From: a virus
Direction: 5' to 3' (one strand)
IMG/VR virus record: IMGVR_UViG_3300037245_000851
Location: 1 to 28,453 of that record
DNA: 28,453 nt
The notes beneath the pieces are model-generated. The model was not told the DNA's origin. It worked only from the letters and a program-made list of their open reading frames with translations, and did not search any database. The position numbers and the translations under genes are program-made. Of this stretch, positions 5,312-26,082 are shown piece after piece. Numbering within the stretch: the first letter of the stretch is position 1; each line of letters opens with the position of its first letter.

Positions 5312-6046
5312 ATGCCAGACAGAACTAACTTACAACATGAAGAGTTGCTTGCAGAATTGCAAGGAATTAAAACCGCAATTCAGAAGACGCAATCATATAT
5401 AGATGCTAATACGTATACTCTTGGTGAAGGGGGTATTGTTGCAATAGCAGGTGCTTCTGGGGCACTTGGCGGTTTTGGTGTTAGTATCCAATTTGATGGT
5501 TCTGCTGCCGGTGCATCTGGAGCAGATGGGTCGATGGATATAGCGACACAGCTTATCAGTTCTGCGTCTGCGACATCAGGTACGACTGCGATATTGGACA
5601 TAGCAACTAAACTCGTTGGTTCTGTTGACGCTGTCTCTGAAGTGACAGGCGACCTGCTTGGCGCGCATATCTTATTCACAGGTTCATCTGACGCAGTATC
5701 CAGCGTATCTGGCGACTTGCTCGGCGCGAGGCTACCTCTTAGAGGTTCGTCGTCCGCATCTTCTGGCGCAGATGCAAGCATTAACGTGCAGCCAATTCTT
5801 GCTGGCAGCGTAGCAGGCGCATCGGGCGCAGATGCAAGCATTAACGTGCAGCCAATTCTTGCTGGCAGCATAGCAAGCGCATCGGGCGGTGACGCGAGTA
5901 TCAACGTGCAACCGGGCGCAGAAGGTAGCTCGTCTGCGGCGTCCAATGCATCTGGTGACATGACAGCATCACTCGTCGTAGCAGGATCAGCCAGCGCAGA
6001 GTCAACTGTCGGACCAACTCAGTTATTCATTAATGGTGAGGCGTAA
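5312..6046 (+). CDS. Stand-alone 20-residue Ser/Ala/Gly repeat protein (tail associated, unknown)
   Basis: The 244-residue protein has a 40-residue helical start (about residues 5 to 30) and then about ten degenerate 20-residue units of the form LxGSxSAxSGAxGxLxVATx. Three consecutive units share the core A-S-I-N-V-Q-P. The alternation of small and aliphatic residues suggests stacked beta strands, as in a beta-solenoid or fibrous stalk. The same repeat is fused to the proteins at 15778, 19637 and 22600. It lies between the neck genes and the tail tube gene, the place where the tail terminator is usually found, but shows no resemblance to terminators. No cysteines, no signal peptide. The ribosome site is weak. 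I do not recognise a named family; a decoration, spacer or adhesion role is possible. Confidence 0.7.
   Translation: MPDRTNLQHEELLAELQGIKTAIQKTQSYIDANTYTLGEGGIVAIAGASGALGGFGVSIQFDGSAAGASGADGSMDIATQLISSASATSGTTAILDIATKLVGSVDAVSEVTGDLLGAHILFTGSSDAVSSVSGDLLGARLPLRGSSSASSGADASINVQPILAGSVAGASGADASINVQPILAGSIASASGGDASINVQPGAEGSSSAASNASGDMTASLVVAGSASAESTVGPTQLFINGEA
5761..5880 (+). repeat. 60-base tandem duplication inside the repeat gene
   Basis: Bases 5761-5820 and 5821-5880 are the same 60-base unit with only four differences; the core 5765-5809 is identical to 5825-5869. A third, more diverged copy follows (about 5881-5915). This is 20 codons, the period of the protein repeat, and looks like a recent in-frame duplication. 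Confidence 0.95.
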
Positions 6047-6117
6047 TACGCCACCCAATATCGTGAAGCCTCAAATACTATTGATTAAACAACAGGATAA
6101 AGAAAAGGAACCAGATA

Positions 6118-7347
6118 ATGGGTGACGCCAATAGAGTACAAGTTAGTTACGTTCAAGAGTCAACTTTCGGCGCGAAGGAAACGGGGTCAAATCTTCAGAT
6201 TACGCGGCTTAATAGTGAGTCGCTTGTCCACGATAAGGGCACGACTGTAAGCGAGGAGATGCGGTCAGACAGGCAGATTAGTGACATCGTTAGAATCGGC
6301 GTCAGCACGAGTGGTGATGAGCCGTTTGAATTGAGCTATGGCACTTATGATGATTTTCTTCAGGCGGCACTTTTGTCGTCTAGCTGGTCGTCCGAAGTAA
6401 AAATAAGTTCAGCGATTACAATGAGCGCAGCGTCGGGCGACAATTCGTTGAACGACTCAGCAAGTGGTTTTGGTAGTTTTACTGTGAATCAGTGGGTTCT
6501 TGTATCTGGGTTTACAGAGAATCCAGATGAAAATAACGGGTTCAAGAAAATTCTGTCAGCAACGTCTGCTAAACTTATCTTTGTTAATGGGGCAATGGTT
6601 ACTGAAGCTGTAGGAGACCCCGTGACAGTCCAAATGGGTGGCGAGATAACTAACGGCACAACGCTTGTTAGTTATAATATTGAAAAGGACTTCCAAGATT
6701 TGTCAAATGTTCTTGCATTGTTTTTAGGCCAGACCATAAACACGTTGAACTTGGATATCCCGGTTGACGGGATTATTACGGGGTCTTGGGGGTTTATGGG
6801 CTCCGAAGAAACATCGTTAACTACGTCGGCAGGTACTGGGTATGATGCAGTCACTACTACACCAGTCATGACCGGCGCGAACCACGTCCCCAGTTTCATG
6901 GAGAATTATAATGAGCAGGGCATTATAAGTTTAGCAATATCACTAACTAATAACCTACGTACGAGGATGCAAGTCGGAACGTTGGGCGTCGTGAGTATGG
7001 GCACGGGTACAGTTGAGATAACTGGTACGTTCTCAGTGTACTTTGAGACAGCAGCCCTGTATAATAAGTTCCTGGCGCACCAGGATACGTCTATTGCCCT
7101 TGCTGTTCAAGACTCACAAGGCAGCGGGTATGTTATCGAACTTCCGGCAGTTGTTATTACAACAGGCACGCGATCGGCGGGCGGTATAAATACCGACGTA
7201 ATTGGTGAGTTTGGGTACAGTGCGAAACTCTCGGCAACTGAAGGCACTACGATTCGTATCGCTCGGTTCCCGATTATGTCCAACTTCCAAGGCATTGTAC
7301 AGGCCACGGCAACTGTCACCGGCGCGTTGTCCGGCACTACAGGGTAA
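6118..7347 (+). CDS. Major tail tube protein
   Basis: The 409-residue protein opens N-R-V-Q-V-S-Y-V-Q-E-S-T-F-G, followed by L-x-x-L/R-N-S-E-S-L-x-x-x-K-x-T-x-x-S-E-E-M-R-S-D-R-Q-I, the signature of the large phage tail tube family in which subunits stack as hexameric rings to form the tail shaft. The length of about 400 is usual for this family because of an inserted domain (about residues 95 to 180 here), and the C-terminal third repeats the beta-sandwich fold. The ribosome site AAGGA lies 8 to 9 bases before ATG. It precedes the chaperone pair and tape measure, the fixed siphovirus order. The last residues, A-T-A-T-V-T-G-A-L-S-G-T-T-G, faintly resemble the 20-residue repeat. Confidence 0.8.
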   Translation: MGDANRVQVSYVQESTFGAKETGSNLQITRLNSESLVHDKGTTVSEEMRSDRQISDIVRIGVSTSGDEPFELSYGTYDDFLQAALLSSSWSSEVKISSAITMSAASGDNSLNDSASGFGSFTVNQWVLVSGFTENPDENNGFKKILSATSAKLIFVNGAMVTEAVGDPVTVQMGGEITNGTTLVSYNIEKDFQDLSNVLALFLGQTINTLNLDIPVDGIITGSWGFMGSEETSLTTSAGTGYDAVTTTPVMTGANHVPSFMENYNEQGIISLAISLTNNLRTRMQVGTLGVVSMGTGTVEITGTFSVYFETAALYNKFLAHQDTSIALAVQDSQGSGYVIELPAVVITTGTRSAGGINTDVIGEFGYSAKLSATEGTTIRIARFPIMSNFQGIVQATATVTGALSGTTG

Positions 7348-7389
7348 GCAGCACAACACAAAGCTTATCTGCTATGAGTAGAAAAAGTA

Positions 7390-7415
7390 CGCCCGTCGTC
7401 ACTCGGCGGCGGGCG
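7390..7415 (+). terminator. Hairpin after the tail tube gene, possible terminator
   Basis: CGCCCGTCG (7390-7398) pairs with CGGCGGGCG (7407-7415) over 9 pairs including one G-T, loop 8. The following CAGTTTAATT is only mildly T-rich, so it may attenuate rather than stop transcription, again allowing more tube protein than chaperone and tape measure. Confidence 0.6.
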
Positions 7416-7486
7416 CAGTTTAATTACAACTAGTACAACAATCAGCACAACAACTATCAGAGCAATCAAGAGGAGACGAACAAATC

Positions 7487-7891
7487 ATGGCGAACATCGA
7501 ACGAATCAAGACAGATGAATCAAAAGAAATTCAGGGTGTATGGGAAGACTATATCTTAGGTATTCGGGTCAAAGTGGCTCGTGACCTCAACCCAAAGTAC
7601 AGGGAAGAATTGCGCAATTTAATTGACCCAGATAAGGGCGAGTATCGTAAAGAGAAGATTGACATTGATACGTTCACAAAGATCACTAACATAGTTCGAG
7701 CGAGAACCATCTTGCTAGGTTGGGAGAATATCGACGACAATGATGGCAAGCCAATCCCGTACTCTGCTATAGCATCCGAGAAGTTCTTTGCGAACCCGGA
7801 GTTGAAAGACTTTTGTGCGTTTGTTGTGGCAATATCGAAAGACCAAGACAAGTATGCAAAGGAAGTTCTTGAAGAATCGGCAAAAAACTGA
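7487..7891 (+). CDS. Tail assembly chaperone, short form (gpG-like)
   Basis: The 134-residue acidic/basic helical protein lies between the tail tube and tape measure genes, as lambda gpG does, and has a good ribosome site (GAGGAG, then ACGAACAAATC) before its ATG. It starts M-A-N-I-E-R-I-K-T-D-E-S-K-E-I and contains a stretch F-T-K-I-T-N-I-V-R-A-R, common in siphovirus chaperones. Its last codons are GCA AAA AAC TGA: the slippery heptamer A AAA AAC touches the stop codon. Chaperones of this kind coat the tape measure until the tube assembles around it and are absent from the virion. Confidence 0.8.
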   Translation: MANIERIKTDESKEIQGVWEDYILGIRVKVARDLNPKYREELRNLIDPDKGEYRKEKIDIDTFTKITNIVRARTILLGWENIDDNDGKPIPYSAIASEKFFANPELKDFCAFVVAISKDQDKYAKEVLEESAKN

Positions 7892-8202
7892 CAGAGTTTC
7901 TCGACTGGCAACTCAGATTCGGGGAACACAATGAGAAAATAAAAGCAGCAGGCTTCGGTAAGAACTTAAACGCACCGCTAGTACATAGTGATTTAACATA
8001 TATCTGGTCAGCGTTTACGTTCTTGTCAGATACGAGGTCGTCGGGCGATGGGATTAAATTGTCTGAAATCAAAATCTGGCTCGACGAGAGTTGTATCTTC
8101 AACCCCGAACGCCGCCAGGAGTTTATTTTTCTAGTTCACAAACTCGACAAGCAATTCATCAAACACTACAGAGACAAAGAGAAGAGCAACCAGCACCGCT
8201 AG
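7487..8202 (+). CDS. Tail assembly chaperone, -1 frameshift fusion (gpGT-like)
   Basis: A ribosome slipping back one base on A AAA AAC (7882-7888) continues in the -1 frame at CTG 7888 and reads 104 further codons to TAG 8200-8202, giving a 238-residue fusion. The added part (L-T-E-F-L-D-W-Q-L-R-F-G-E-H-N, later W-S-A-F-T-F-L-S-D, I-W-L-D-E, and a basic end) has normal protein character, and no good independent start is seen for it. The W-S-x-F and D-W-x-x-R-F elements are typical of the T-like part of such fusions. In lambda the fusion is made at a few percent and both forms are needed for tails. The join is 7487-7888 plus 7888-8202. Confidence 0.85.
7882..7888 (+). other. -1 ribosomal frameshift site A AAA AAC
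   Basis: The heptamer is in the correct phase (A in position 3, then AAA and AAC codons) and is followed immediately by the zero-frame stop TGA. A strong downstream stimulatory structure was not found; only a weak 5-pair stem (GAGTT with AACTC) can be drawn. Confidence 0.85.
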
Positions 8203-8224
8203 ACACAGCAGTGATGTAGCAACT

Positions 8225-8240
8225 AAGGAGAAACACTATT
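8225..8240 (+). promoter_or_regulatory. Ribosome site AAGGAG with ATT start codon of the tape measure
   Basis: AAGGAG at 8225-8230 is followed after 7 bases by ATT at 8238. The frame is closed upstream by TAG 8217-8219, and the codons between contain no ATG, GTG or TTG. The next in-frame ATG is 132 bases later, inside a conserved tape-measure start. Confidence 0.7.
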
Positions 8241-10889
8241 CCCGCCCTTGACGTAGCCATCCGAGCAGCAGCAGCAGTAGTCGGCGCAAAGAAGTTTGAC
8301 CAAGCGACGCGCAGAGTCCGCAAATCCGCGAGAGACGCAGCAAATGGCGTCGAACAAGCCGACAACGCCATGAAAAAGCATGGCAAGACTGCGACAAAGA
8401 CTGGCGGCGAGATTGGGAAGCTCGCTAAAAGGCTCATCGGTGCGGCTGCTGCATACAAAGCGTTTAGACTTGCAGTATCATCCGTACGAGAGTTTGCCAA
8501 GTTTCAAAAAGGCATGGCGAACGTATCAACAATGCTCAACGAGCAGACGCGCAAGCTTCTGCCAAAGTATACAAAGCAGATCATCGCGCTGACGAAAGAG
8601 TACGGTCAGAACGCAGAAGTCTTGTCACTCGGTTTGTATGACATCTTGTCTGCGTCGATCGACGCGAGTCAGGCGATGGGCGTCCTTGAAATTGCTACAC
8701 AAGCAGCAATCGGCGGTATGACTGACACTGCTGTCGCAGCAGATGCAATAACAACTGTCTTAAATTCTTATAGCCTCGCCGCGTCAGAAGCAGGCAGAGC
8801 CAGTGACGTTTTGTTTGCAATCGTCAAGCGCGGCAAGATTACATTTGGTGAATTAGCGAGTGGTATCGGTAAAGTATCCTCTATTGCAGCAGCGTCAGGG
8901 CTATCTATTGAAGAAGTCGGGGCGGCTATCGCAACAATGACGCGAGCAGGCATCCAGTCAGATATTGCGATGACGTCACTCCGTGCAATATTGATGACAT
9001 TTTTAAGCCCCACGAGAGAGAATATTCAGGCTGCAAAGGCTTTGGGTTTTGAACTTAATATAACTACTCTAAAGTCAGAGGGGTTGACAGGGGTTATACA
9101 GAAATTAATTGGGAAGTCTCCATCGTCGGTAGCTGGTGCATTCTCAAATGCTAGGGGCCTTGCAGGACTTGCAGCGTTGATTGGCAGTGCAGAAGGACAC
9201 TTAAAGGACTTAGGCACAATATCTGATTCTTCGGGTGATAGGCTAGAAGCATTCGGCGAGCATGTTGACACAGTAGCACAACAACTTGCAAAAGCAAATC
9301 AGCAATGGGCCGGATTCAAAAGGGGCGTGGGCGAATATTTTGTGCTTCGAGCCGGAGAGATTGCGGATATAGCTGGCGCAGCGAAGGAAGTACACAAAAG
9401 CAGCGTATTTTGGAGGGGCACAGCAGCAGACACAGGGCCGGATTTAGATTCGATTAAGGAAAGCAATAAGAGTATTGGGCAAACTCTTAAAGACCTTGAG
9501 GGCCGCACAGACGCACAGATTAAGAGGTTTATAAAAATGCGTGAGGTTCTAGGCGAAAGAGTACACCCCCGTGTACGCCAGCTACTTGAACCTTCGTTTG
9601 ATGAGGCAGAACAGGATAGAACGTTAAAGTCCCGAGTAGACTTCAGAGCAGAGTTTGACGAAGAATTAGTAAAGAGCGACACTAAGGAGGTAGAAGAAGA
9701 ACTCAAACGCGCAGCGAGCATCAACAAGTTAACCAAGGAACATATCAAAGTACTTGAAGATGAGAAAGCATTAATTGGCCTAACTGCTGATGAACGGGCC
9801 AGACATAATGATGTTTTAAGATTCGAACAGATCGCCACTAAAGAACTCGGCGAAGACATTGAAGATATTTCTAAGGCGTACCAAAAAGCTTTGGACGAAC
9901 TCGTAGCACTTCAAAAAGCACAGTCTAAGAAAGAAATCGTAGCAAGGTACTTTGGCACGCTAGAAAAAGAACGTGAGTTGCTTGGGCTAACTAGTGACGA
10001 GCGAGAACGCGCCATTGAGTTGCAGAGGTTCGAGAACGAACTTAAAGCAGCAGGCGTAGAGGTGACGAAAGAACTCACTAATGCGTATAAAGACCAGCTA
10101 GGTGCAAATCAAAGAGCCGGTGAGCAGGCGGAACGAGATGCGAGTTTTGTAAAACGATTTGAAGAAGACCGCAAGAATATCTTACGAGGGCCGTTGATTG
10201 CTATGCTCGAAGATAGAGAACTTGAGGAAGTTTTCAAGGAGAGCGTCGCACGTTTGGGGACGACGGTAGTTGAACACATGTACGAAAAAACTATTGTTGA
10301 ACCACTAATGGAGATATTAGAAGATACTATTGACCCCGCGATGGAAAAGATTGCGAGCATGATAATGGAGGGATTAGCAGGTGTAGCGTCTATGGCTGTT
10401 AATCTATTGTCAAGTATTTTGGGTGGTGTTGTTAGCGGTATCGGCGGCGCAATAGGCGGGGGACTTGGTGGACTTTTCGGGGGTGCAGGAGGCGCAGCAG
10501 CGAGTGGCGCAGGGTCGATAACAGGGGCCGGAATATCTGGTATATCATTACCGGCAGCAAATGGCTTAGTTTTCAACAACGCAAGTGTCACGCCGTTCGC
10601 AAGCGGTGGCGTACTTGATGGGCCAACAGTATTTCCGATGGCCAACGGGGGCCTAGCGTTGGGTGGCGAAGCGGGGCACGAAGGGCTTTTGCCGTTAGAA
10701 AGGGATAGCAAGAACCGTCTCAGCGTCCACACAACAGGCGACGGAGAGTCTGGCAAAACACCAATCAAAATCATCAACGTAATGGACATGTCACAAGTCC
10801 AAGAGTATCTGGGTACTGGTGATGGCGAGCGTCAAATCGTCAACATCATGCGACGCAACGCTGGTGAGGTTACAAACGTTTCAGGCTAG
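8238..10889 (+). CDS. Tail tape measure protein (ATT start)
   Basis: The 883-residue protein sets tail length and is ejected into the host with DNA. Residues 2 to 45 (P-A-L-D-V-A-I-R-A, then G-A-K-K-F-D-Q-A-T-R-R) are the typical start of siphovirus tape measures and lie before the first ATG at 8370, so ATT 8238 is taken as start. Residues about 76 to 260 form the TP901-type core with G-I-S/T-x-x-x-A-A-A-S-G-L and T-S-L-R-A-I-L. Two related coiled-coil units (about 503 and 574, each with E-x-x-L-x-G-L-T-x-D-E-R) repeat at 71 residues. A hydrophobic Gly-rich region (about 707 to 757) is a likely membrane-active segment. The end has F-A-S-G-G-V, P-T-V-F-P, and G-E-A-G-H-E-G-L-L-P-L, the conserved lambda gpH-like tail. 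At about 0.15 nm per residue, the expected tail is near 130 nm. Confidence 0.92.
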   Translation: MPALDVAIRAAAAVVGAKKFDQATRRVRKSARDAANGVEQADNAMKKHGKTATKTGGEIGKLAKRLIGAAAAYKAFRLAVSSVREFAKFQKGMANVSTMLNEQTRKLLPKYTKQIIALTKEYGQNAEVLSLGLYDILSASIDASQAMGVLEIATQAAIGGMTDTAVAADAITTVLNSYSLAASEAGRASDVLFAIVKRGKITFGELASGIGKVSSIAAASGLSIEEVGAAIATMTRAGIQSDIAMTSLRAILMTFLSPTRENIQAAKALGFELNITTLKSEGLTGVIQKLIGKSPSSVAGAFSNARGLAGLAALIGSAEGHLKDLGTISDSSGDRLEAFGEHVDTVAQQLAKANQQWAGFKRGVGEYFVLRAGEIADIAGAAKEVHKSSVFWRGTAADTGPDLDSIKESNKSIGQTLKDLEGRTDAQIKRFIKMREVLGERVHPRVRQLLEPSFDEAEQDRTLKSRVDFRAEFDEELVKSDTKEVEEELKRAASINKLTKEHIKVLEDEKALIGLTADERARHNDVLRFEQIATKELGEDIEDISKAYQKALDELVALQKAQSKKEIVARYFGTLEKERELLGLTSDERERAIELQRFENELKAAGVEVTKELTNAYKDQLGANQRAGEQAERDASFVKRFEEDRKNILRGPLIAMLEDRELEEVFKESVARLGTTVVEHMYEKTIVEPLMEILEDTIDPAMEKIASMIMEGLAGVASMAVNLLSSILGGVVSGIGGAIGGGLGGLFGGAGGAAASGAGSITGAGISGISLPAANGLVFNNASVTPFASGGVLDGPTVFPMANGGLALGGEAGHEGLLPLERDSKNRLSVHTTGDGESGKTPIKIINVMDMSQVQEYLGTGDGERQIVNIMRRNAGEVTNVSG

Positions 10890-10907
10890 TTAATTATAGG
10901 TGGTGAT

Positions 10908-11630
10908 ATGAGTGATGCAATGAGGGATAAAAATCAAAGATTACATACAAGAGAAATTGTACATGTCTATAGGATTTACTTTCCCGGGTCTGGTAAGTGC
11001 TACATTGGCCAGACGTGCGACTTAAAAAGGCGTGCAGAGTCCCACATCAAAGCTGATAGCATTATTGGCCTCGCGCTTAGGAAGTACGATGAATGGTCAA
11101 TTTCTGTTTTGCATACGTGTTATTCAAGATATGAATCAAATCGCACCGAAATAGAGGAAATTCGTAATTTTGACTCGGTATCACCGAATGGTTACAATTT
11201 GTCACGAGGCGGCGAGGGTAGTGGTACTGGTGGCACATTTCTTGGTTGTCGCCATACTGATGAGTCTCTTGCTAAGATGAGTGAGAGCCACAAAGGTGTA
11301 AAAGCTCCCTGGGTTAGTAAAGCGCTAAAAGGAAAGAAGCAGACACCGGAGCATATTGAAAAAGTGCGCCAAGCCGGAGTAGGCCGTAAACATAGTGACA
11401 GCACAAAACAGAAGATGAGTGAGTCAGCGTTTAAGAGAACGCGGCTTCCGTTTAGTGATAAAGCTAAGAAGAATATGGGCAAGCACGTCAGAGGTAGTGG
11501 GAATCCCTCGTGTCGAATTGATGTGCAAATAAAGAAATTGAAGAATCGTATGGAGAAGTCCAGATTAAAACTTTCGGCAGAGATTTTAGACATCATAGAT
11601 AATGAAGATAAACTAAACAGCGTAGATTAA
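10908..11630 (+). CDS. Free-standing GIY-YIG homing endonuclease with NUMOD3 motifs
   Basis: The 240-residue protein has an N-terminal GIY-YIG nuclease domain (Y-R-I-Y-F-P-G-S-G-K-C-Y-I-G-Q-T, then R-A-E-S-H-I with the catalytic region, and E-I-E near residue 85). These are followed by several NUMOD3-type DNA-binding repeats (S-E-S-H-K-G, G-K-K-Q-T-P-E-H-I-E-K, G-R-K-H-S-D-S-T-K-Q-K-M). Such enzymes cut DNA at sites in related phages lacking the gene and spread by repair. It lies between two intact tail genes, so it is an inserted accessory gene rather than part of the tail; no group I intron parts were recognised around it. The start ATG has AGGTGGTG just before it. The codon style is more AT-rich than in its neighbours. 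Confidence 0.9.
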   Translation: MSDAMRDKNQRLHTREIVHVYRIYFPGSGKCYIGQTCDLKRRAESHIKADSIIGLALRKYDEWSISVLHTCYSRYESNRTEIEEIRNFDSVSPNGYNLSRGGEGSGTGGTFLGCRHTDESLAKMSESHKGVKAPWVSKALKGKKQTPEHIEKVRQAGVGRKHSDSTKQKMSESAFKRTRLPFSDKAKKNMGKHVRGSGNPSCRIDVQIKKLKNRMEKSRLKLSAEILDIIDNEDKLNSVD

Positions 11631-11693
11631 TAATCGCCGGAACGAATTTGGAGGCACTTGAGACCGGAGTAATGTTAGCAATTGTACAGTATG

Positions 11694-11713
11694 TAAGTTC
11701 CGCGCGGAACTTA
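11694..11713. repeat. 20-base perfect palindrome downstream of the endonuclease
   Basis: TAAGTTCCGCGCGGAACTTA reads the same on both strands. As RNA it folds into a short stem without a T-run after it. It may be a protein-binding site, a weak terminator, or part of the insertion boundary of the homing gene. Confidence 0.7.
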
Positions 11714-11768
11714 AACTAAATGGTGATTGATTTGTTATTAACACCATAAATATTAACCCATCATATCG

Positions 11769-11783
11769 AAGGGAGAAGCTATC
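11769..11783 (+). promoter_or_regulatory. Ribosome site AAGGGAG with ATC start codon
   Basis: AAGGGAG (11769-11775) is followed after 5 bases by ATC 11781. The first conventional in-frame start, TTG 11802, would be 26 bases from the site and would cut off a conserved family start. Confidence 0.6.
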
Positions 11784-12197
11784 GGTTCATTCGCAGATTA
11801 TTTGGAAGACGCATTGTTAGACCATGTATTTGGAACAGGTGAGGGAGTCACTGCCGCAAAGGATTTTGCTCGACCAGACAAGTACATCGCACTTTGCACA
11901 GTCGCAGTGACAGACACAGCGACGGGCAGCACAATTACAGAGCCGTCGAGTAACTCGTATGCTCGTGTAATTATGTCAACGTGGGACGCATCGTCTAGTG
12001 GTGCAACTGAGAATACTAACGACATTCTCTATGCGCAGGCCACGGGAAGTTTCGGGACGATTCTTGACTTCGCGATTTGTGATGCGCTCACTACGGGCAA
12101 CGTTCTTTGTTACGGCGCGTTGACCATCAGCAAGAGCGTGGCGTCCGGTGACACTCCAAAGTTCGCCACAGGTGACTTGGATATCACTCTGACTTAA
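11781..12197 (+). CDS. Small tail protein of the 'LLDHVFG' family (ATC start)
   Basis: The 138-residue product reads (M)GSFADYLEDALLDHVFG, then Y-I-A-L-C-T-V-A-V-T-D, S-Y-A-R-V-I, N-T-N-D-I-L-Y-A-Q-A-T-G-S-F-G-T-I, and finally a beta-rich end. This series is that of a small phage family found near tape measure and fibre genes, usually annotated simply as tail or tail-fibre protein; its exact role is unknown. The conserved start implies that translation begins at ATC 11781, not at TTG 11802. It is the first structural gene after the inserted endonuclease. Confidence 0.72.
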   Translation: MGSFADYLEDALLDHVFGTGEGVTAAKDFARPDKYIALCTVAVTDTATGSTITEPSSNSYARVIMSTWDASSSGATENTNDILYAQATGSFGTILDFAICDALTTGNVLCYGALTISKSVASGDTPKFATGDLDITLT

Positions 12198-12238
12198 ACA
12201 ATGTCCTAGTAGTAAGCAAGTAAGTAGTAAGTAATCTG

Positions 12239-12278
12239 TAACGCGGCATTGCGTGGTAACATGAGCAATGCCGCGTTA
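12239..12278. terminator. Perfect 14-pair hairpin, possible terminator or RNA processing site
   Basis: TAACGCGGCATTGC (12239-12252) pairs without error with GCAATGCCGCGTTA (12265-12278), loop 12. It lies 42 bases after the small tail gene. No T-run follows, so it is not a classical terminator; it may protect or process the mRNA. Upstream (12210-12233) is a short AAGTAGTAAG-like repeat. Confidence 0.55.
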
Positions 12279-12345
12279 TGGTAATCCAGGCGGCGAGGTC
12301 GGGATTTATTAGCCGTAATTGGCCATATTCTTGAGGAGAATAAGT

Positions 12346-13647
12346 ATGAACGCAGCAGAACAAACAAGACAGTTAGAGTCTAGCAGGGGCGCTAAGCCAA
12401 ACAAGCCCAAAGTGTATTTCGCACTCTTAAATAATGGCCCGATACGACGGGAGATGAGCAGCATAGTTATTCCCGCCATGCAACGAACAAAGGGCGTTGA
12501 GCTTATATGGGAGAATCCTGGGCGGACCTGGGCCAACCCAATATCGAGTAATCGTTGTATGATTGTGAAGCGGTTTCTTGAAACGGATTGCACACACTTG
12601 CTCATGATCGACGACGACGTAGTACCGCTGCATAATCCTTGTGAGATGGTACACATAGATCGTGACGTCGTAGGGTCGCCCGCATTGGTGCGCAGCGCCG
12701 GTCAAATGCTAAACTGGACTGCGTATGTCCCGCATACAGCGGGCCACGGATACTCAGCAGTAGACTTGGACTCTATTGATGACATGTTTGACGTTCTTGA
12801 AGTATCTATCGTCGGTACGGGATGTATATTAGTCAAACGAGAAGTTTTGGAAAATGTCAAACAACCGTTCCATTCTGAGTTTGACGAGGATGGTATTCAG
12901 ATATACGGAACAGACTTTGCGTTTTGCCGCCGAGCAATTGATGCAGGTTACAAGGTCTACACCACAACGCATCGCAGATGCGAACACTTTAAACAAATTG
13001 GTTTCTCAGACATGACAGCCTGGGACACGATTGACTACTTCGATCATTCCAATTCTGGTTACAATATGCCCTGGGGCGAGTACTCAGTTACACAACGTGA
13101 CTGGAAGTTCATCAAGCAGCACGTCAAACAACTGCGATTAGACAAAATAGATTTAGACCAGCTCAAACCATTACCGAAACTCAAAGTCCTAGAATTCGGC
13201 GTCGGGCTTTCCTCGTTGCTCTTATCAGAAACGTGCAAAGTAATTTCATACGAGACAAGTCAAGAGTACAAAGAAATCATCGAATCAAAGATGACTGACA
13301 AAAATGATTTAGAAATCCGGCTCTGGGATGGCATTAATGCACCAGAGTTACTTGAAGGTGACAACTGGCACGCAACAAAGTTTGACTTGGTCTTCGTAGA
13401 TGGCCCGAAGGAACGACAAAAAGGCGGGATAGGTAGAGACGAAGCGATGAGAATCGCGGCGCAAGTGTCTGACAATATTATAGTCCACGACGCAGGGCGG
13501 GACGAAGAGTGGATTCATCAACGCAAGTATCTCCGAAGTATTTTCAAGCTCGAACGAAAAAGTGGTAGTCACATAACACGGTGCCACTATTGGAAACGCC
13601 GCCCGTCGCCCGTGACTATCAACGACGTGACTGCATTCGCACCGTAA
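12346..13647 (+). CDS. Glycosyltransferase-methyltransferase fusion
   Basis: The 433-residue protein joins two domains. Residues about 20 to 230 look like a GT-A family glycosyltransferase: a start strand P-K-V-Y-F-A-L-L, S-S-N-R as in GT2-like enzymes, the metal/sugar-nucleotide motif M-I-D-D-D-V at 87-92, G-T-G-C-I-L-V-K (157-164), Y-G-T-D-F-A-F-C-R-R (187-196) and a late His-rich segment. Residues about 278 to 420 look like a class I SAM methyltransferase: V-L-E-F-G-V-G-L-S-S (281-290), acidic end of the next strand S-Y-E-T-S, F-D-L-V-F-V-D-G-P (346-354) and I-I-V-H-D-A-G-R-D (378-386). Likely job: glycosylating, and perhaps methylating, virion or host surface molecules. ATG 12346 is chosen because GAGGAG lies just before it; an upstream TTG at 12319 is less likely. 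Confidence 0.72.
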   Translation: MNAAEQTRQLESSRGAKPNKPKVYFALLNNGPIRREMSSIVIPAMQRTKGVELIWENPGRTWANPISSNRCMIVKRFLETDCTHLLMIDDDVVPLHNPCEMVHIDRDVVGSPALVRSAGQMLNWTAYVPHTAGHGYSAVDLDSIDDMFDVLEVSIVGTGCILVKREVLENVKQPFHSEFDEDGIQIYGTDFAFCRRAIDAGYKVYTTTHRRCEHFKQIGFSDMTAWDTIDYFDHSNSGYNMPWGEYSVTQRDWKFIKQHVKQLRLDKIDLDQLKPLPKLKVLEFGVGLSSLLLSETCKVISYETSQEYKEIIESKMTDKNDLEIRLWDGINAPELLEGDNWHATKFDLVFVDGPKERQKGGIGRDEAMRIAAQVSDNIIVHDAGRDEEWIHQRKYLRSIFKLERKSGSHITRCHYWKRRPSPVTINDVTAFAP

Positions 13648-15379: not shown

Positions 15380-15394
15380 ACAAGGAGACGGGCG

Positions 15395-15777: not shown

Positions 15778-17328
15778 ATGCTCGGATCATTCCAACTAGG
15801 CTCAATTCAATACGGTGACCAGGGTGCGAACTGGGTTTATCTAGTTGGCGCAGTCACATCGACGAGCGGCGCAAGCGGCACGCTATCTGTCGCTACGCAG
15901 CTTGTGGGTATGTCAGACGCCGCGTCGTCAGCAACAGGTGTGCTTAGTGTTGGGACTCTTGGCCGCAGCGTGATTACGGCAACATCGAACGTCACTGGAT
16001 CATTGTCGGTTACAACACAGTTCGAAGGGTCCAGTAGTTCAACGTCCGCAGCTACGGGCAATCCGTTCAACGTACAACCGGGCTTATTTGGTGGAGTCGG
16101 TGCAGTATCAACTACGACAGCGCTAATGGCTGTAATACCCGGATTCGGAGCAACGGGAATTCCGTGGCGACCGCACGACGGGATACTCGAAACATTAGAA
16201 TGGAAAACGAGCATCCTGAAAGCGTTCAATGGAACTGAGCAACGTATCAAGTCTCGCCAGTCCCCACGACAGTTTTTCAAGTTGCGATTACTCTTTGATA
16301 CAGATAAAAAGAATAGTCAGTACGAAGCAATGCTGTTTTCTCGCCAAAAAGAAACCTGGCTATTTCCAGTATGGTCTGAATTTGTTGAACATACTACTGA
16401 CATAAATAAGCACGACACAACAATTAGTGTAGATACGACATTCGCTGATTATCGAGAAAATAACAAAGCACTAATCTGGAAGTCTGAGACAGAGTATGAA
16501 TTTGTAGCAATAGAATCAGTCACTGATTCGCTACTAACACTTGACCCAAATTATTCTATTCAATGTGATTTTACGGGTGACAAGCTTATCATGCCTGTGC
16601 GAACAGCGTATATGGTATCGCGGAATAGAAAGTCCAAAACTAATTCGCCCGTCGCTTTTGTTGATGCAGTGTTCGCGGTTACTGACAATACAGGCATTGC
16701 GGGATACACGCAAGCCGCGAATTATGACTCGTTAAATCTGCTTGTCGTTCCGGCGTTTATGGAAGGCGTGCATCTTGAGTCGAGCGATGCAGATGCGATA
16801 ACTCTGGATTACGGCACGGGTATTTTCAGCGTTGTGAGTGACAGTATATACAACTTTCTGTCGCAGAGCCATGTATTTTATAATGACACGAAACAAGCGG
16901 CGTGGGAATTTCGGCAGTTCTTGTACTCGCTTGACGGGCGACAAAAGACAGTTCTAATCCCGACGTTCCGTGATGACCTGGTGCAAGTAAGCGGTATTGA
17001 CATTGAGCCGTTAGACACGTCAGTAGTAATAGAAAACATACGACTTGCGAAGAACATGGGTGCTAACAATCTTCGGACATATTTAGGGTTTTATTTTGTA
17101 GCAACGAACGTCTTGATTGTCAGAAAGATTACGGGCATTACAGAATTAGACCCAGACCAAGAACGCATTGACTTTGACGTCGATCTTGACTTGGCAACAG
17201 CAGTGTCAGCAGGCGATTGCAAAATATGTTTCGTTGATAAGTGTCGTCTCGCGTCAGACAAAGTCGAAATTCAGTGGCTTCGTTCACATTACAATCAATG
17301 CACAACTAATTTCATGCGTGTCCCCTAG
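15778..17328 (+). CDS. Distal tail protein with N-terminal Ser/Ala/Gly repeats
   Basis: The 516-residue protein has two parts. Residues 1 to about 120 begin L-G-S-F-Q-L-G-S-I-Q-Y-G and then show four or five 20-residue units of the type seen at 5312 (for example G-T-L-S-V-A-T-Q-L-V-G). Residues about 125 to 516 start W-R-P-H-D-G-I-L-E-T-L-E-W-K-T-S-I-L, with G-T-E-Q-R-I-K-S-R-Q-S-P-R, a strongly recurring pattern of a phage tail-tip/distal-tail family that shapes the junction of tube and tip. The order (after the tape measure, before gpL- and gpJ-like genes) fits. No ribosome site is visible; the leader is A-rich. The repeats are an added module not needed for the family. Confidence 0.65.
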   Translation: MLGSFQLGSIQYGDQGANWVYLVGAVTSTSGASGTLSVATQLVGMSDAASSATGVLSVGTLGRSVITATSNVTGSLSVTTQFEGSSSSTSAATGNPFNVQPGLFGGVGAVSTTTALMAVIPGFGATGIPWRPHDGILETLEWKTSILKAFNGTEQRIKSRQSPRQFFKLRLLFDTDKKNSQYEAMLFSRQKETWLFPVWSEFVEHTTDINKHDTTISVDTTFADYRENNKALIWKSETEYEFVAIESVTDSLLTLDPNYSIQCDFTGDKLIMPVRTAYMVSRNRKSKTNSPVAFVDAVFAVTDNTGIAGYTQAANYDSLNLLVVPAFMEGVHLESSDADAITLDYGTGIFSVVSDSIYNFLSQSHVFYNDTKQAAWEFRQFLYSLDGRQKTVLIPTFRDDLVQVSGIDIEPLDTSVVIENIRLAKNMGANNLRTYLGFYFVATNVLIVRKITGITELDPDQERIDFDVDLDLATAVSAGDCKICFVDKCRLASDKVEIQWLRSHYNQCTTNFMRVP

Positions 17329-17427
17329 TTTATAGCAGCGTCAGCTACAGATATAGCATCAGCTATAGACGTCGCAAGTTTAGTGGTATTAATAACTGTA
17401 AGAATCAACAAACAATGGAGTAAGAAT

Positions 17428-19547: not shown

Positions 19548-19567
19548 CACAACTAGTCAGAATAATC

Positions 19568-19616
19568 AGCCAGCACAACAGCCAGCACAACAACCAGCAC
19601 GATAACATGCCAGCAC
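19568..19616 (+). repeat. 12-base AGCCAGCACAAC repeats in gene gap
   Basis: Two perfect copies (19568-19579, 19580-19591) are followed by diverged copies ending at about 19616. The unit is A/C-rich like the repeats in other gaps. Confidence 0.85.
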
Positions 19617-19636
19617 AACGCTAGGACACCTGATTA

Positions 19637-20674
19637 ATGGCAGTTAGCACGCAAGACAGACGACGAGCAGCGCAAAGCACACACTGGGCACCGCTGCACC
19701 CCGTCGCAGACAACAGGCCATTAAATGGGTCAGATCGTCGCATAGTTCTCGGCGTGTATCCTGGTCCGTCATTGTATGTGTCTGGATCAGCGTCTGGCGT
19801 ATCTAACACGCAAGGTGCGTTAGGATTTTTGATTTCGTTGTCAGGTTCTGCGTCAGCAACTTCAAACTTAGTTGCATCTTTGACAGTTGTGACTTCGCTG
19901 GCAGGTTCTGTATCTGCTACGTCAGGGGCAGTTGCATCTTTGATAGTAGCAACTCAGTTAGCAGGTTTTGCGTCAGCAGCATCGGGTACAGTAGCATCTT
20001 TGTTTGTAGCAACACCACTTGCGGGTTCTGTATCAGCAACATCAAGTACAGCCGCGTCTTTGACAGTTGCGACTTTGTTAGTAGGTTCTGCATCAGCCAT
20101 ATCAAGTGCGGATGGTAATTTATCTTTTGCAGTACTCGCGCTAATAGCATCAGCCACAGCATCGTCATCTACGACTGGGTATTTAACTGGCGGCAAGACA
20201 AACATATCTGCTGTGGTCATTGCTGTGTCATCAGCGACAGGGCAACTCAGCGTATCGCGACGAGCGATAGGATTTTATGAACGCACGGCAAATCAAATCA
20301 CGAGTTACTTTCAGGGCGTCGCAGACACCAATAGTTTCGTCGTGCGTTTTGATAATGATCCTCGTACAACTCCCGACGGCGACGTTTGGTATCTAGCTAG
20401 CGTTGATTTTGGCGTAGCGAACCAACATGAGTTGGGAACAACCACGTCGTTTCGTGTTGTGGGCAATTTTAGTATTCGTTCGCAAGACACAATCGGGGCG
20501 GGCATGGGTGCTCTTCTCGAAAACTCAGATACAATAACCACCGCATTCCGCGCAACCAACGTTGGCCGAATCATCTTCGGTATTCCACGTATCAATAACA
20601 CTGGTCGCATTGGTGATAACTTTCAGATCAACATAACGTGTCCATTCGTGATTGACAAGCAACCCGCCAGTTAA
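19637..20674 (+). CDS. Repeat-fused protein with tail terminator-like C-terminal domain
   Basis: The 345-residue protein starts with a short segment (residues 1 to 45), then about eight 20-residue Ser/Ala/Thr-rich units (about 45 to 210), the longest run of this repeat in the window. Residues about 212 to 345 form a separate domain, F-Y-E-R-T-A-N-Q-I-T-S-Y-F then F-V-V-R-F-D-N-D-P-R-T-T-P-D-G, a G-x-G-x-x-x-L-L-E-N-S-D-T-I-T-T-A-F stretch and a final C-P-F-V-I-D. This domain is clearly paralogous to the whole next protein (20746). Its plan (YDN-P start, G-x-L-x-V, G-x-G, F, final P-F) resembles phage tail terminator proteins. The repeat could be a surface stalk carried by a ring-forming domain. 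Confidence 0.6.
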   Translation: MAVSTQDRRRAAQSTHWAPLHPVADNRPLNGSDRRIVLGVYPGPSLYVSGSASGVSNTQGALGFLISLSGSASATSNLVASLTVVTSLAGSVSATSGAVASLIVATQLAGFASAASGTVASLFVATPLAGSVSATSSTAASLTVATLLVGSASAISSADGNLSFAVLALIASATASSSTTGYLTGGKTNISAVVIAVSSATGQLSVSRRAIGFYERTANQITSYFQGVADTNSFVVRFDNDPRTTPDGDVWYLASVDFGVANQHELGTTTSFRVVGNFSIRSQDTIGAGMGALLENSDTITTAFRATNVGRIIFGIPRINNTGRIGDNFQINITCPFVIDKQPAS

Positions 20675-20684
20675 CTGACGCGAC

Positions 20685-20740
20685 ACACAACACACAACAC
20701 ACAACACACAACACACAACACACAACACACAACACACAAC
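20685..20740 (+). repeat. Tandem repeat (ACACAAC)x8
   Basis: Eight perfect copies of ACACAAC fill nearly the whole gap and stop 5 bases before the ATG at 20746. There is no G in the array, hence no Shine-Dalgarno sequence for the following gene. Confidence 0.97.
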
Positions 20741-20745
20741 GAATA

Positions 20746-21210
20746 ATGGGATACGTAGAACTAACCAACACGATAACAACATCTTTCCAGGATTTCGCAG
20801 ACACGAACAGCTACATTGTTCGATACGACAACGATCCAAGGGACACGCCCGATGGGCTACCTTGGCTCGAAGTGTCAGTCGAATTTGACTCCACAGTGTC
20901 TCGCGACATAGCTGTACCCAAATTTAGAGCAACTGGCGCTCTTAGAATCACGATTACAGATGACATCGGCAAAGGTATCTATCAAGTTCTCGCAATCACG
21001 GACGTTATTGAAACGCAATTCAGTAACACGAAAATATCTGACGTCTTGTTTCGAACGGCGATGGTCATAAAACGCGGGCGGACGTCTGACAACATAAGCA
21101 ATAATCGCAGTGGTCGCCAGATCAACAGCAATCAAGCAGCCAACGCAGGCGGCGGTAACAAATATCAAGTAGATGTTACGATCCCGTTTCAATACGATTT
21201 TACATCATAA
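20746..21210 (+). CDS. Tail terminator-like protein
   Basis: The 154-residue protein aligns by eye with the C-terminal domain of the gene before it: T-T-S-F-Q-D-F-A-D-T-N-S-Y-I-V-R-Y-D-N-D-P against T-S-Y-F-Q-G-V-A-D-T-N-S-F-V-V-R-F-D-N-D-P. Further common points are T-P-D-G, F-R-A-T-G, G-x-G and a closing V-T-I-P-F-Q-Y-D. These points are those of the siphovirus tail terminator fold, which caps the tube and joins it to the head. Such genes normally sit before the tail tube gene, where none was found here. An Asn/Gly/Ser-rich insertion lies at about residues 118 to 140. Translation has no visible ribosome site and follows a pure A/C repeat leader. An alternative is a tip-ring protein of the same fold. 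Confidence 0.55.
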   Translation: MGYVELTNTITTSFQDFADTNSYIVRYDNDPRDTPDGLPWLEVSVEFDSTVSRDIAVPKFRATGALRITITDDIGKGIYQVLAITDVIETQFSNTKISDVLFRTAMVIKRGRTSDNISNNRSGRQINSNQAANAGGGNKYQVDVTIPFQYDFTS

Positions 21211-21246
21211 TAATAAAACACACGACACACGACGCAGGGATAGACA

Positions 21247-22125: not shown

Positions 22126-22547
22126 CGAAATCAATAAGACCAATAGTGTCAGCAGGGCCAATAAAATCTATGGAGTGTAGATTGTTAAGGTCGTGGCCTG
22201 TTCAGCTAGTCGCAGTCGTATCGTATATTCAGTATCTATTAGCGCCTGAGTGCGTGTCAGTTGCGTACAGCCAGAACTATGAGTTTGCGGCGATATTTGC
22301 CGCGATAATCGCATTTGCTTTCAAGCTTGCGATAATGACAGCAATATCTACGGGCATCGCTTTGTTGACTGCAAAGAAGCCACCAAAACCTCGCCATGCA
22401 CCACCAGCAGGTATTGAACAATTTAGCGCGCCAACAGCAGAAGAGGGCAGAGCAGTCCAAGTATTATTTGGCAAGAGGTATATTGAGGGGCCAAACGTTG
22501 TGTGGTACGGGGATTTGAAATCCATACCCGTTGTTATTAGAGTATAG
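22122..22547 (+). CDS. Tail tip protein J, N-terminal piece with membrane segment
   Basis: The 141-residue protein contains a hydrophobic segment of membrane type (about residues 50 to 85: A-A-I-F-A-A-I-I-A-F-A-F-K-L-A-I and onward), a Pro/Lys linker, then A-P-T-A-E-E-G-R-A-V-Q-V-L-F-G-K-R-Y-I and G-P-N-V-V-W-Y-G-D-L-K. This last part is the usual start of gpJ-like tip proteins, where it is directly followed by Y-x-L-G-M-H. Here that continuation is the start of the next gene, 52 bases on. The tip protein thus seems divided into two chains, or this is a gpI-like assembly factor that shares the motif. Starts on the ATG overlapping the gpL-like stop. Confidence 0.68.
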   Translation: MTKSIRPIVSAGPIKSMECRLLRSWPVQLVAVVSYIQYLLAPECVSVAYSQNYEFAAIFAAIIAFAFKLAIMTAISTGIALLTAKKPPKPRHAPPAGIEQFSAPTAEEGRAVQVLFGKRYIEGPNVVWYGDLKSIPVVIRV

Positions 22548-22599
22548 TGGCCACGGTTGTTGTACTGCGCGATGCACTAAGTATTTGATGAGATAAATT

Positions 22600-25500
22600 A
22601 TGGGATTATTTGGCACCAGAAAAAAACAGAATCAAACAGTAAACCACAAGTATAATTTGGGGATGCACATGGTTGTGGGCCACGCGAACATGGATGCTGT
22701 TGATCGAATTCGTGTTGGCGAGAAAACCGTTTGGACGCCGTCGTTGCCGCATCCAGATAACGTGTTAAAGGATTCGTATAACACAGGGGACGCGAGTGAA
22801 ATAGATGTGTCGTCAGCGAACTATATTGCGCAAACTTGGACACCCGCTGCACAGGGGTACTATACGTCATCAGTAAGACTGCGAATATTTCGAAATTCAT
22901 CACACTCCAGCCCAACTACGATTAGCATTAATGGTGTAGACGAAATCGGCGAGCCAGATGACTCAAATGTAATCGTGACAAGTAATGAAGTAGCAGCATC
23001 TTCGATAACAACAAGTACGCCAGGTACTTGGGTAGAGTTTATACTCACCAACCCTGTATATATAACAGCAGGGATAATGTACGCGATAGTATTAAAACCG
23101 CAGGGCCCTACAACAAAAGTTTGGTGGCGATATGATTCGTCTGATAGTTATTCAGGGGGTAAGCTGTATAGAAATACAGGCTCCTGGGGTGCATTCCCGC
23201 CCGGTGACGCGATGTTTGAAATGTATCTAGCAGAGGGCAATGCGCCAAACCACTCAATAAGAATAGAGGCAAGAAATATTTTCGGTGGGTCAAGGAAAGA
23301 GGGCGGGATAAAGGGCAATGTAGACCTACTTTTTGGCGCATCAGATCAGGCACAAAATAAATACTTGGCAAGCGAACTCGATACAAACATCCCCGCGTTT
23401 CGTGGGTCTACGAGTATTGTGTTAAAGCAAGTGTATCTGGGGACTAGCCCATATCTAAAGCCGTGGGCATTTTTCTGCCGCAGGCTTTTGAAACAAGTAA
23501 GTGGTGACGACCAGTGGTACGTTGGGAAAGCGGTGATAAATCCGGGCATATCTACGGGCGATGATCTTAACGCGATACATATAATTCGTGAGTGCCTACT
23601 GGATATTGAATGGGGGCTGGGATTTTCAGGGTCTGATATTGATTCTACGTCGTTTGAGAGGGCAGCAGATATATTGCACGACGAGAGTTTTGGCTTGTCA
23701 CTGTTGTGGGACCAGACAGAGGCTATTGAGGATTTTGTTGGTAGTATATTAGGAACTATTGCGGGGTTTCTATATCAAGACTTAGCAACTGGCAAATGGG
23801 TGATAACACTTACACGGGACCCAGACTTGCCCCGCATCAACGAATCGACAGAGTATCCCGGGCTTATCCCGTCAGGCAACCCAACCATAATATCATTTCA
23901 ATCGGGTGTCGATCCAGAAGAGAAGCAAAGGGGTCAGACATTCACGCCAGTAGACACATTTTCTACACAGAGAGTGTCACTAAAACTCGGGTCTGATGAT
24001 ACTGTGTCTGTACGAGTTGAAATTCAAAGTACAACAGCGGGATTGCCAAGCGGAAATGTGATGGCATCTGGGTCTGTCAACGGGTCAGATATGTTGCCCG
24101 TTGATGATTTGCTAACAGATACTCTTGGGTGGATTACAGCCACGTTAGACAGAGAAATTGTTTTAACCGAAGGTACGCAGTATGCAATCTTATTTTATAT
24201 CACTACGCCTGGCGTATCAACATCAATAAATTTTGAGATTTCTACGTATGATTCTGACACAGGCCCACCGTATGGATATATAGGTGGAACGTATGTAAGG
24301 TCAGATAATTTTGGCGTGAGCTGGAGTATACCATCAAGCGGCAGAAGCGACTTATTTTTTAGGATACTATCCACAGCACCAGAATCATTTGACGAAAATC
24401 ATATAATAGCAATTGAAGAGTTTGCGAGGCCGTCGTATGGCGAAGTTATAAACCAAGTCACTGTAAATTGGTGGGATAAAATTAATAGCAAATCGCGTCC
24501 CGCGATGGCTCAAGACATAGCGTTGATTGAGAAACAAAGTAATAACATAATAGAGCTGAATCTCAACCATTATGGTGTTTGCAATGCAGCGTTAGCTAAT
24601 AAAATAGCAGAAAGGGAGCTAAAACTTGCGTCGTCGATGCTCGCATCAATGAGGATTAGATGTACCCGGCAAATGTCACACCTTAAACCAAACGATGTGT
24701 TCAAACTTTCGTGGGCTGAGTTGGGTATCGTTCAAATGATCGTGCGAGTCATTGACGTAGACTATGGCAGTTTGCAGAAGAGTGAGGTATACATGACATG
24801 TCTCGAAGATGCGTTTTCTACTGCGGAGACTGTATACGAGAATCCGCCAGAATCTGAGTGGTCAGACCCAGTCAATGATGCGCTTAATATAGCCAATATA
24901 GATATAATTGAAACCCCGTATTGGATACTCGTAAACGACATTGAAAATCAAAGTGTAGTTGACACTACGTATCCCGATGTAAGTGGATTTTTATTGCTCG
25001 CTGTTGCGCCGCCAACATTAGATTCGTTAGATTTTGAAATCTTTTTGCAACAGTCTGCGGGACTTCCGTTTAACTCAGAAGGTATTGCAGCATTCGCGCT
25101 CAATGCTACGCTTACGATAGGTATGTTCGAAGAAGCTCAGAATGTAACTATTGACATCGAGAATGAGTTTGGATTGGACTTAGTATCAGACGACAGCTAC
25201 GCGGTGATAGGCAATGAGATGGTGAAAGTCGTGTCCGTTGATAGTGACAACGATCAAATCACCGTAGAGCGGGGAGTATTTGATACAGTGCCAGAAGCTC
25301 ATGCTCTGGGCGACTTTGTATATTTTATTGGTGACGGATATGTTAACATAGAGGCAGAGTATACAGATGGTGACCAGCCCGCGTTTAAGATTTTGCCAAG
25401 AACAGGCAACGGGCAACTCCTCGAATCTTCGGCGTCAACGCAAAATGCGGACATACTTGATAGTAGATTTATTAGGCCGTATCCGCCGGGCAACTTAAAG

Positions 25501-26082
25501 TTTAATGCAGAGTCTTACCCAACATATTTGTCCACTAAGATAACGGGTGGATTTGAAATTACGTGGTCACATCGCGACAGAACAGACGCGACGCAAGTCG
25601 GGACAATCGTATTGCACACTGATGCGACGGACTACGGCCCAGAAGCGGGTACAACATATACGATTAAGATTTACGACGAAGACGACAACTTAGCTCGAAC
25701 CGTTACCAGTATATCCGGCACAGTTTACGAGTATACTGAAGCATTTGAGATTTCGGACAATGGCGCACTTCAAAAGCAATTGCGTTTTGAAATTTATTCA
25801 GTTCGCGATGGCTTTGATTCTTGGTTGTTTGGCTATGACATTTTAATTAAGCGAACACTTGTGAGCACAGCCGCTGCGTCATCGAGTGCGTCTGGCAGCT
25901 TAAGCAATTTAGTGTCATTAGTTGGCTCTGTTTCTGCAACGTCAAATGTGTCGGCACCCGGATTAAACGAAGTTTGGCTTGAAGGCGTATCAGTCACAAC
26001 ATCAAGTGTTACAGGAATACTTGCGGGGTTTGTCGGGTCGGTTTCTGCGTCGTCTGGCGCAACTGGCGAGTTAACCGTTTAA
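22600..26082 (+). CDS. Tail tip / host specificity protein J, main part
   Basis: The 1160-residue protein is the baseplate hub of the tail tip. Residues 15 to 45 (Y-N-L-G-M-H-M, D-A-V-D-R-I-R-V-G) and 210 to 430 (N-I-F-G-G, E-G-G-I-K-G, later W-G-L-G-F) are typical of gpJ-like hubs. Two related beta-sandwich domains are inserted at about 57-210 and 430-593, each with an F/W-T-P start, G-x-W, G-x-x-Y-A-I and an F-F/E-x-x-L ending, resembling a discoidin-like 'choice-of-anchor' plan. Residues about 600 to 770 resume the hub (M-A-Q-D, C-T-R-Q, V-F-K-L-S). A fibronectin-III-like part lies about 960 to 1085, and the last 75 residues carry three to four Ser/Ala repeat units. It probably makes first contact with the cell surface. 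The ribosome site is weak. Confidence 0.82.
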   Translation: MGLFGTRKKQNQTVNHKYNLGMHMVVGHANMDAVDRIRVGEKTVWTPSLPHPDNVLKDSYNTGDASEIDVSSANYIAQTWTPAAQGYYTSSVRLRIFRNSSHSSPTTISINGVDEIGEPDDSNVIVTSNEVAASSITTSTPGTWVEFILTNPVYITAGIMYAIVLKPQGPTTKVWWRYDSSDSYSGGKLYRNTGSWGAFPPGDAMFEMYLAEGNAPNHSIRIEARNIFGGSRKEGGIKGNVDLLFGASDQAQNKYLASELDTNIPAFRGSTSIVLKQVYLGTSPYLKPWAFFCRRLLKQVSGDDQWYVGKAVINPGISTGDDLNAIHIIRECLLDIEWGLGFSGSDIDSTSFERAADILHDESFGLSLLWDQTEAIEDFVGSILGTIAGFLYQDLATGKWVITLTRDPDLPRINESTEYPGLIPSGNPTIISFQSGVDPEEKQRGQTFTPVDTFSTQRVSLKLGSDDTVSVRVEIQSTTAGLPSGNVMASGSVNGSDMLPVDDLLTDTLGWITATLDREIVLTEGTQYAILFYITTPGVSTSINFEISTYDSDTGPPYGYIGGTYVRSDNFGVSWSIPSSGRSDLFFRILSTAPESFDENHIIAIEEFARPSYGEVINQVTVNWWDKINSKSRPAMAQDIALIEKQSNNIIELNLNHYGVCNAALANKIAERELKLASSMLASMRIRCTRQMSHLKPNDVFKLSWAELGIVQMIVRVIDVDYGSLQKSEVYMTCLEDAFSTAETVYENPPESEWSDPVNDALNIANIDIIETPYWILVNDIENQSVVDTTYPDVSGFLLLAVAPPTLDSLDFEIFLQQSAGLPFNSEGIAAFALNATLTIGMFEEAQNVTIDIENEFGLDLVSDDSYAVIGNEMVKVVSVDSDNDQITVERGVFDTVPEAHALGDFVYFIGDGYVNIEAEYTDGDQPAFKILPRTGNGQLLESSASTQNADILDSRFIRPYPPGNLKFNAESYPTYLSTKITGGFEITWSHRDRTDATQVGTIVLHTDATDYGPEAGTTYTIKIYDEDDNLARTVTSISGTVYEYTEAFEISDNGALQKQLRFEIYSVRDGFDSWLFGYDILIKRTLVSTAAASSSASGSLSNLVSLVGSVSATSNVSAPGLNEVWLEGVSVTTSSVTGILAGFVGSVSASSGATGELTV

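Follow-up and report, generated by a model that had tools for sequence, protein, structure and literature searches.

A 20-residue repeat on several virion proteins of an uncultivated phage: a candidate display arm of variable length

Ig-like domains decorate several classes of virion protein in tailed phages, among them proteins of the tail tube, baseplate and capsid, and may aid adsorption (Fraser et al. 2006, reviewed in PMC9022992). Evolved Dit (evoDit) proteins are distal-tail proteins with carbohydrate-binding modules that may assist the initial encounter with polysaccharide of the host (PMC9128512), and Anabaena phage A-1(L) carries bead-chain neck fibers formed by separate gp82, gp81 and gp80 trimers (PMC10966104). 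Here we describe a 20-residue tandem repeat in the virion proteins of an uncultivated phage (IMGVR_UViG_3300037245_000851), known from a viral stretch of 28,453 nt that is called the window below.

Like the Ig-like domains, the repeat is a putative surface module on several classes of virion protein, with a suspected role in adsorption. The phage Ig-like domains belong to Big, I-set and FN3, whereas the unit here has no Ig family match: searches with 61 repeat proteins at E ≤ 0.01 and with ten repeat segments at E ≤ 1 found none of these three. As in evolved Dit, a distal-tail protein carries an added module (the protein encoded from 15778, whose core matches 8rk3 and 8vjh), but here that module is the repeat array itself, with LamG or choice-of-anchor domains at the free end in related phages (L014 and L012), and Pfam recognises no CBM in the distal-tail protein of the window. 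The repeat thus falls outside the Ig-like and evolved Dit groups on one membership test each; it may work like both while being a different module. To the A-1(L) neck fibers the likeness would be one of architecture, a long flexible neck-mounted arm that ends in a carbohydrate-binding module. The window also encodes a member of the family of fiber I, gp80 of podophage GP4 (PF23140; 8jou), whose homologues neighbour repeat genes; the difference from GP4 is that fiber I is here a linked partner, itself without the repeat.

The repeat unit and its hosts in the window

Twenty-five units, cut by hand from four named proteins of the window, give the consensus LxGSxxAxSxxxGxLxV, in which Ser9 is invariant (25/25). 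These proteins and the spans of their arrays (Table 1) agree with the original prediction, which had placed one repeat in four hosts. For cross-protein tests, a matrix was built from the units of one protein and scored on another against 500 shuffles of the test region, with the region's own composition as background. In the nine of 12 directions that do not have the tip protein as target, z ranged from 12 to 71 and every shuffle fell below the observed score (z = 28–71 among the 5312, 15778 and 19637 proteins; z = 12–16 for the tip matrix on these three). The tip array is the weakest target: the 15778 matrix gave z = 15, again with every shuffle below the observed score, and the 19637 and 5312 matrices gave z = 4.7 and 4.8, with the best shuffle above it. 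Identity between units of different genes is 28–32% in register, compared with 10–13% in rotated registers. The profile-against-shuffle check that had been proposed thus shows units aligning across proteins far above composition-matched sequence, least strongly for the tip, which supports the idea of one module on otherwise unrelated virion proteins.

Table 1. Repeat hosts, repeat arrays and associated genes of the window
Feature	Positions	Strand	Basis or remark
Stand-alone repeat protein, 244 aa	5312–6046	+	Predicted helix at residues 4–33, then about 9–10 units
Repeat units of the 5312 protein	5492–6037	+	Two spacings of 21
Major tail (tube) protein	6118–7347	+	Pfam Phage_tube_2, E = 6.5e-34; phrog_290
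Single C-terminal unit of the tail-tube protein (probable)	7285–7344	+	FQGIVQATATVTGALSGTTG; shuffle test
Fiber-I family gene, 131 aa	11802–12197	+	Pfam PF23140 Gp80, E = 6.8e-28, 98 bits (cut-off 27)
Distal-tail protein with repeats	15778–17328	+	phrog_1082, E = 5e-79
Five N-terminal units of the distal-tail protein, residues 22–122	15841–16143	+	Cross-protein matrix test
Terminator-like paralogue with repeats	19637–20674	+	phrog_179, E = 2.5e-10
Eight units of the 19637 protein, residues 48–209	19778–20263	+	Cross-protein matrix test
Repeat-free tail terminator	20746–21210	+	Phage_tail_terminator_5, 26.4 bits (cut-off 27)
Tail-tip (J-like) protein	22600–26082	+	phrog_1101, E = 8e-216
Choice-of-anchor R domain in the tip, residues 441–579	23920–24336	+	NCBIfam NF041539, 39.7 bits (cut-off 30)
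C-terminal repeats of the tip, last 75 residues, 3–4 units	25855–26079	+	Cross-protein matrix test

JBD30 (8rk3) and the 8vjh phage have homologues of both the distal-tail and the tip core. For the 15778 core these are chain U of 8rk3, a JBD30 virion protein (E = 8.6e-30), and chain B of 8vjh, 'Distal tail protein' (E = 3.4e-14). For the 22600 core they are the tip attachment and minor tail proteins of the two entries, chain A of 8vjh and chain o of 8rk3. The 15778 matches begin at residue 185 or 168 of the 8rk3 and 8vjh chains, so that the repeats replace their N-terminal part (about 170–185 residues); in a further departure from both phages, the window tip adds a C-terminal array. By our reading of the sequences, the N-terminal part would be a different domain in three relatives (M6, L018 and L019), and in L017 repeats would be followed by such a domain. 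Homologues of the stand-alone 5312 protein (165 and 158 aa) sit between the terminator and tail-tube genes in related contigs.

The third named host had been called terminator-like, and family and fold bear this out: its C-terminus belongs to phrog_179, and in the predicted model it matches the T1 stopper-tail terminator (9l0e_N, TM 0.74 by target length) as well as other terminators. It is probably not the usual terminator, however, since a repeat-free copy lies at 20746, whose homologue in two relatives occupies the customary position, directly ahead of the 5312 homologue and the tube gene (L286:3096–3566, minus strand; L287:6529–6948); in L286 this homologue scores above the Pfam cut-off in the canonical position. 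The host is thus better described as a paralogue of the true terminator that is encoded in the tail-tip block.

When the remaining window genes were scanned, the tail-tube protein emerged as probably a fifth host, beside the four that had been named and that all stand. Its best-scoring stretch, FQGIVQATATVTGALSGTTG, lies at the C-terminus (p = 0.005 by shuffles with all 20 columns, 0.087 with only the first 16) and is degenerate in the window. The best stretch is the extreme C-terminus also in the tube proteins of three related phages (L286, L274 and L014), and a C-terminal unit is absent from four tube proteins of repeat-free phages (M6, Bhz54, R01 and L022). A longer, frameshifted array on the tube protein was considered and rejected, the other frames holding no further units after the stop.

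Structure prediction with AlphaFold2, run on two of the proteins with alignments drawn solely from the window and fetched sequences, places two beta strands in each unit. In the 19637 protein these follow a 20-residue period with pLDDT of about 83 over residues 71–150; the 5312 model has the same two strands per unit at lower confidence (pLDDT about 65, with a model mean of 63), preceded by an N-terminal helix. Stacked beta strands had been proposed from the sequence, and single chains of both proteins are indeed predicted to form strands, the 5312 model being the weaker. Fold searches with the repeat itself matched no solved structure.

Neither Pfam nor NCBIfam holds a family for the repeat, as judged from profile searches with the window and the repeat proteins, which agrees with the statement in the original prediction that no named family was known. 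Our literature searches found no published description of it, and tblastn of the repeat proteins against 50,697 phage records gave no match, where a low-complexity filter probably hides such sequence. A profile match to PDB 9lc0 (E = 0.0024) was rejected, as it aligned 70 low-complexity residues without the Gly3 and Ser9 pattern. Among beta-solenoids, of which bactofilins (PF04519) are an example, there is a weak likeness: two of the ten repeat segments match the bactofilin model (E = 1.1e-4 and 0.02), at 22.8 and 15.5 bits, both below the Pfam cut-off of 27.9, and with no fold match. Such a resemblance would fit a beta-solenoid without establishing it.

Recurrence and evolution of the module

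Scanning 2.9 million viral contigs with a three-unit degenerate DNA pattern, and keeping those ORFs that scored above their own shuffles, yielded at least 65 ORFs; a four-unit pattern gave 70 stretches, which is a complete count. In total at least 95 repeat ORFs with 1,493 units (1,305 distinct) occur in at least 87 viral loci, window relatives included, so that the search of phage and metagenome sequences suggested at the outset does recover the module elsewhere. Among the matches listed, an ORF holds a median of 13 units and at most 52, successive units are spaced by exactly 20 residues in 77% of cases, and the most conserved positions are Gly3 (91%), Ser9 (84%), Gly13 (71%) and Leu1 (64%). 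The conserved columns of this wider set (1, 3, 7, 9, 13 and 15) are all odd, and columns 16–20 are variable. Of 120 stretches listed from a collection of genomes, only five scored above their shuffles, one of them (L144) apparently a Ser/Ala-rich false positive, and among the matches listed the module therefore looks mainly viral. An ORF in the Methylovulum miyakonense genome (L221:863–2833, minus strand) has about 300 N-terminal residues, eight units and a further C-terminal end; on sequence the first part reads as tube-like and the end as discoidin-like, with no Pfam or NCBIfam family hit to either.

Eight related contigs carry repeats in their distal-tail and tip proteins alike, and L018, L019, L021–L023 and the isolates M6, Bhz54 and R01 carry them in neither (the Bhz54 tip by profile only). 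By core identity these phages fall into two groups, the repeat-bearing contigs near the window clustering together, so that presence in both proteins may go back to one ancestral event. A search over the full length of 36 further contigs leaves at least three unrelated ones (G023, G031 and G038) with two clearly separate repeat ORFs; only these are counted, as the per-contig tally takes in frame-split genes and contig ends. Most other repeat contigs have a single repeat gene. Recurrence in several tail genes of one genome, which the original prediction asked about, is thus seen in the relatives.

This distribution bears on a reading in which units on different proteins, the tube unit included, would bind one another edge to edge, with the arms laid along the tail in a common sheath or locking neck, tube and tip together; a virion-wide coat and parts binding one another were both raised in the original prediction. 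Such a coat would accord with a module on several proteins of one genome, and with a tube protein that ends in one unit in four repeat-bearing related phages and in none of four repeat-free ones. Set against this are the single repeat gene of most other repeat contigs, array lengths that differ widely and the degenerate state of the tube unit in the window, and we regard mutual binding as rather improbable. Its stronger form, in which units on different virion proteins would recognise each other to build a continuous, self-assembling beta layer along the tail with caps docked onto it, strikes us as a decidedly long shot.

The original prediction also spoke of a module moved between tail genes. 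Sharing across unrelated hosts stands, and the DNA carries no signature of recent movement: identity between units of different genes is close to the random synonymous-codon expectation. With no excess of DNA identity between genes, recent transposition of units was rejected and any spread between genes is old; more recent duplication is seen among copies within a gene. The 5312 gene contains near-identical 60-nt tandem copies (5765–5910) and the 19637 gene similar ones (19842–20104), so expansion does happen, and slippage might in principle have produced the arrays as neutral low-complexity sequence with no selected function. We give this hardly any credence, since the same column pattern holds across the 1,305 distinct units (among the matches listed), is kept between genes whose codons are mutually randomised, and scores far above shuffles.

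Comparison with one relative (L006) shows repeats that are 40–64% identical and anchors that are 88–89% identical. Differences at four-fold sites are comparable (0.46–0.61 in repeats, 0.42–0.50 in anchors), and protein change is thus faster in the repeats than in the anchors, as expected of parts that would be exposed.

Caps, anchors and a proposed role

In related phages the repeat often joins a terminal domain, or cap, to a virion anchor. The arrangements include LamG followed by many units and a distal-tail core (L014), LamG, units and a terminator-like domain (L015), a beta-helix, units and a terminator-like domain (L006; Beta_helix just below the Pfam cut-off), and choice-of-anchor R, units and a distal-tail core (L012). 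Caps assigned by family models include Laminin_G_3 (L014 and L015), CBM_4_9 (L132), DNRLRE and, in L012, choice-of-anchor R, together with a glycosyl-hydrolase core in a single protein of the scanned set; LamG and choice-of-anchor R recur in other repeat proteins. In L108 (6515–9394, plus strand) a long enzyme-like domain precedes the repeat array. Further anchors are head closure Hc1 (L106 and L141), a head–tail connector (L085), a distal-tail protein (L080) and a tail protein (L076), and L102, L142 and L032 have stand-alone repeat genes with head or connector genes close by. Virion proteins of several functions thus carry the module: tube, distal tail, terminator-like, tip, head closure and connector. 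None of the four window arrays has a cap, and their arms would end bare; the window tip core does contain choice-of-anchor R, the domain type that caps the L012 array.

From their family resemblance we infer that the caps bind glycans. A stalk or adhesion layer was among the roles first suggested, and the lectin-like caps that the repeat joins to tail or neck anchors in related phages support it, adhesion itself being presumed. We favour a display arm of beta structure and variable length that virion parts would carry and that would aid attachment (probability roughly 0.6). A 20-residue beta module with two short strands per unit would chain into an arm of adjustable length, which phages would graft onto virion proteins, several of them ring-forming (tube, distal-tail, duplicated terminator-like, head-closure, connector and tip proteins). 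The free end of this arm would in many phages bear a lectin-like, CBM-like, beta-helix or choice-of-anchor domain; in the window the arms would be bare and the choice-of-anchor domain sits within the tip core. Most likely the arm would hold a binding face off the particle, making reversible attachment to glycans of the host surface or the environment likelier.

The arm might instead be a passive spacer, setting the distance between anchor and cap with no binding of its own. A pattern that stays constant while length varies up to 52 units (among the matches listed) fits this, as do caps and anchors that vary freely around the repeat; the window arrays, being uncapped, would leave a pure spacer nothing to space, and on balance we consider a pure spacer unlikely.

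If the display arm is the right reading, an unnamed repeat in at least 87 viral loci allows virion arms of a class that curated domain libraries have missed to be recognised by sequence, and many 'hypothetical' neck and tail proteins become testable adhesin candidates. Seen on head-closure, connector, tube, distal-tail and tip proteins and linked to a named fiber-I gene, this modular, length-variable system would make the role of Ig-like and similar virion decorations testable.

Linked and neighbouring genes

In the window, 4 kb separate the fiber-I family gene at 11802 (Table 1), whose product also matches PDB 8jou_a (E = 1.6e-6), from the nearest repeat gene, which is downstream of it. Across the loci, 39 of 69 repeat ORFs have a fiber-I gene on their own strand no more than 1.5 kb upstream, compared with 28 of the 338 other long ORFs of the same loci (odds ratio 14, p = 4e-18); these counts include related and duplicate contigs, which are not fully independent, so that the p-value is optimistic. 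The fiber-I protein, often encoded alongside, may help to mount the arm; this role, like the protrusion of the arm from the virion and its binding, is one that we infer.

The gene at 12319–13647 comes after the fiber-I gene, an order that the window shares with nine other loci. Its product reads as glycosyltransferase-like, which raises the prospect of a glycosylation scaffold, with the dense Ser/Thr of the repeat, above all Ser9, modified by this protein to form a glycan layer on the tail. The constancy of Ser9 (all 25 window units; 84% of the wider set, among the matches listed) and the position of the 12319 gene near repeat genes in L006, L014, L011/L012, L015/L016, L303 and L295 would suit such a scaffold. 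Yet of the loci searched, 87 of them with repeats, no more than 10 have the gene, and its product has no Pfam or NCBIfam match, so that the enzymatic activity is a reading of the sequence; we think a scaffold of this kind very unlikely.

The repeat-free terminator (20746–21210) adjoins its repeat-bearing paralogue in the window and precedes the tube gene in relatives, an apparent relocation. A GIY-YIG/NUMOD3 endonuclease gene (10908–11630) follows the tape measure gene in the window, and in L286 a GIY-YIG-like ORF (5176–6048 of its reverse complement) stands directly before the terminator; given this neighbour, a homing endonuclease may have joined in relocating the terminator. Lastly, arrays of 7-base units (AACACGT, CACAACT and ACACACA) lie outside the called genes at 3097–3128, 3537–3574 and 20683–20740.
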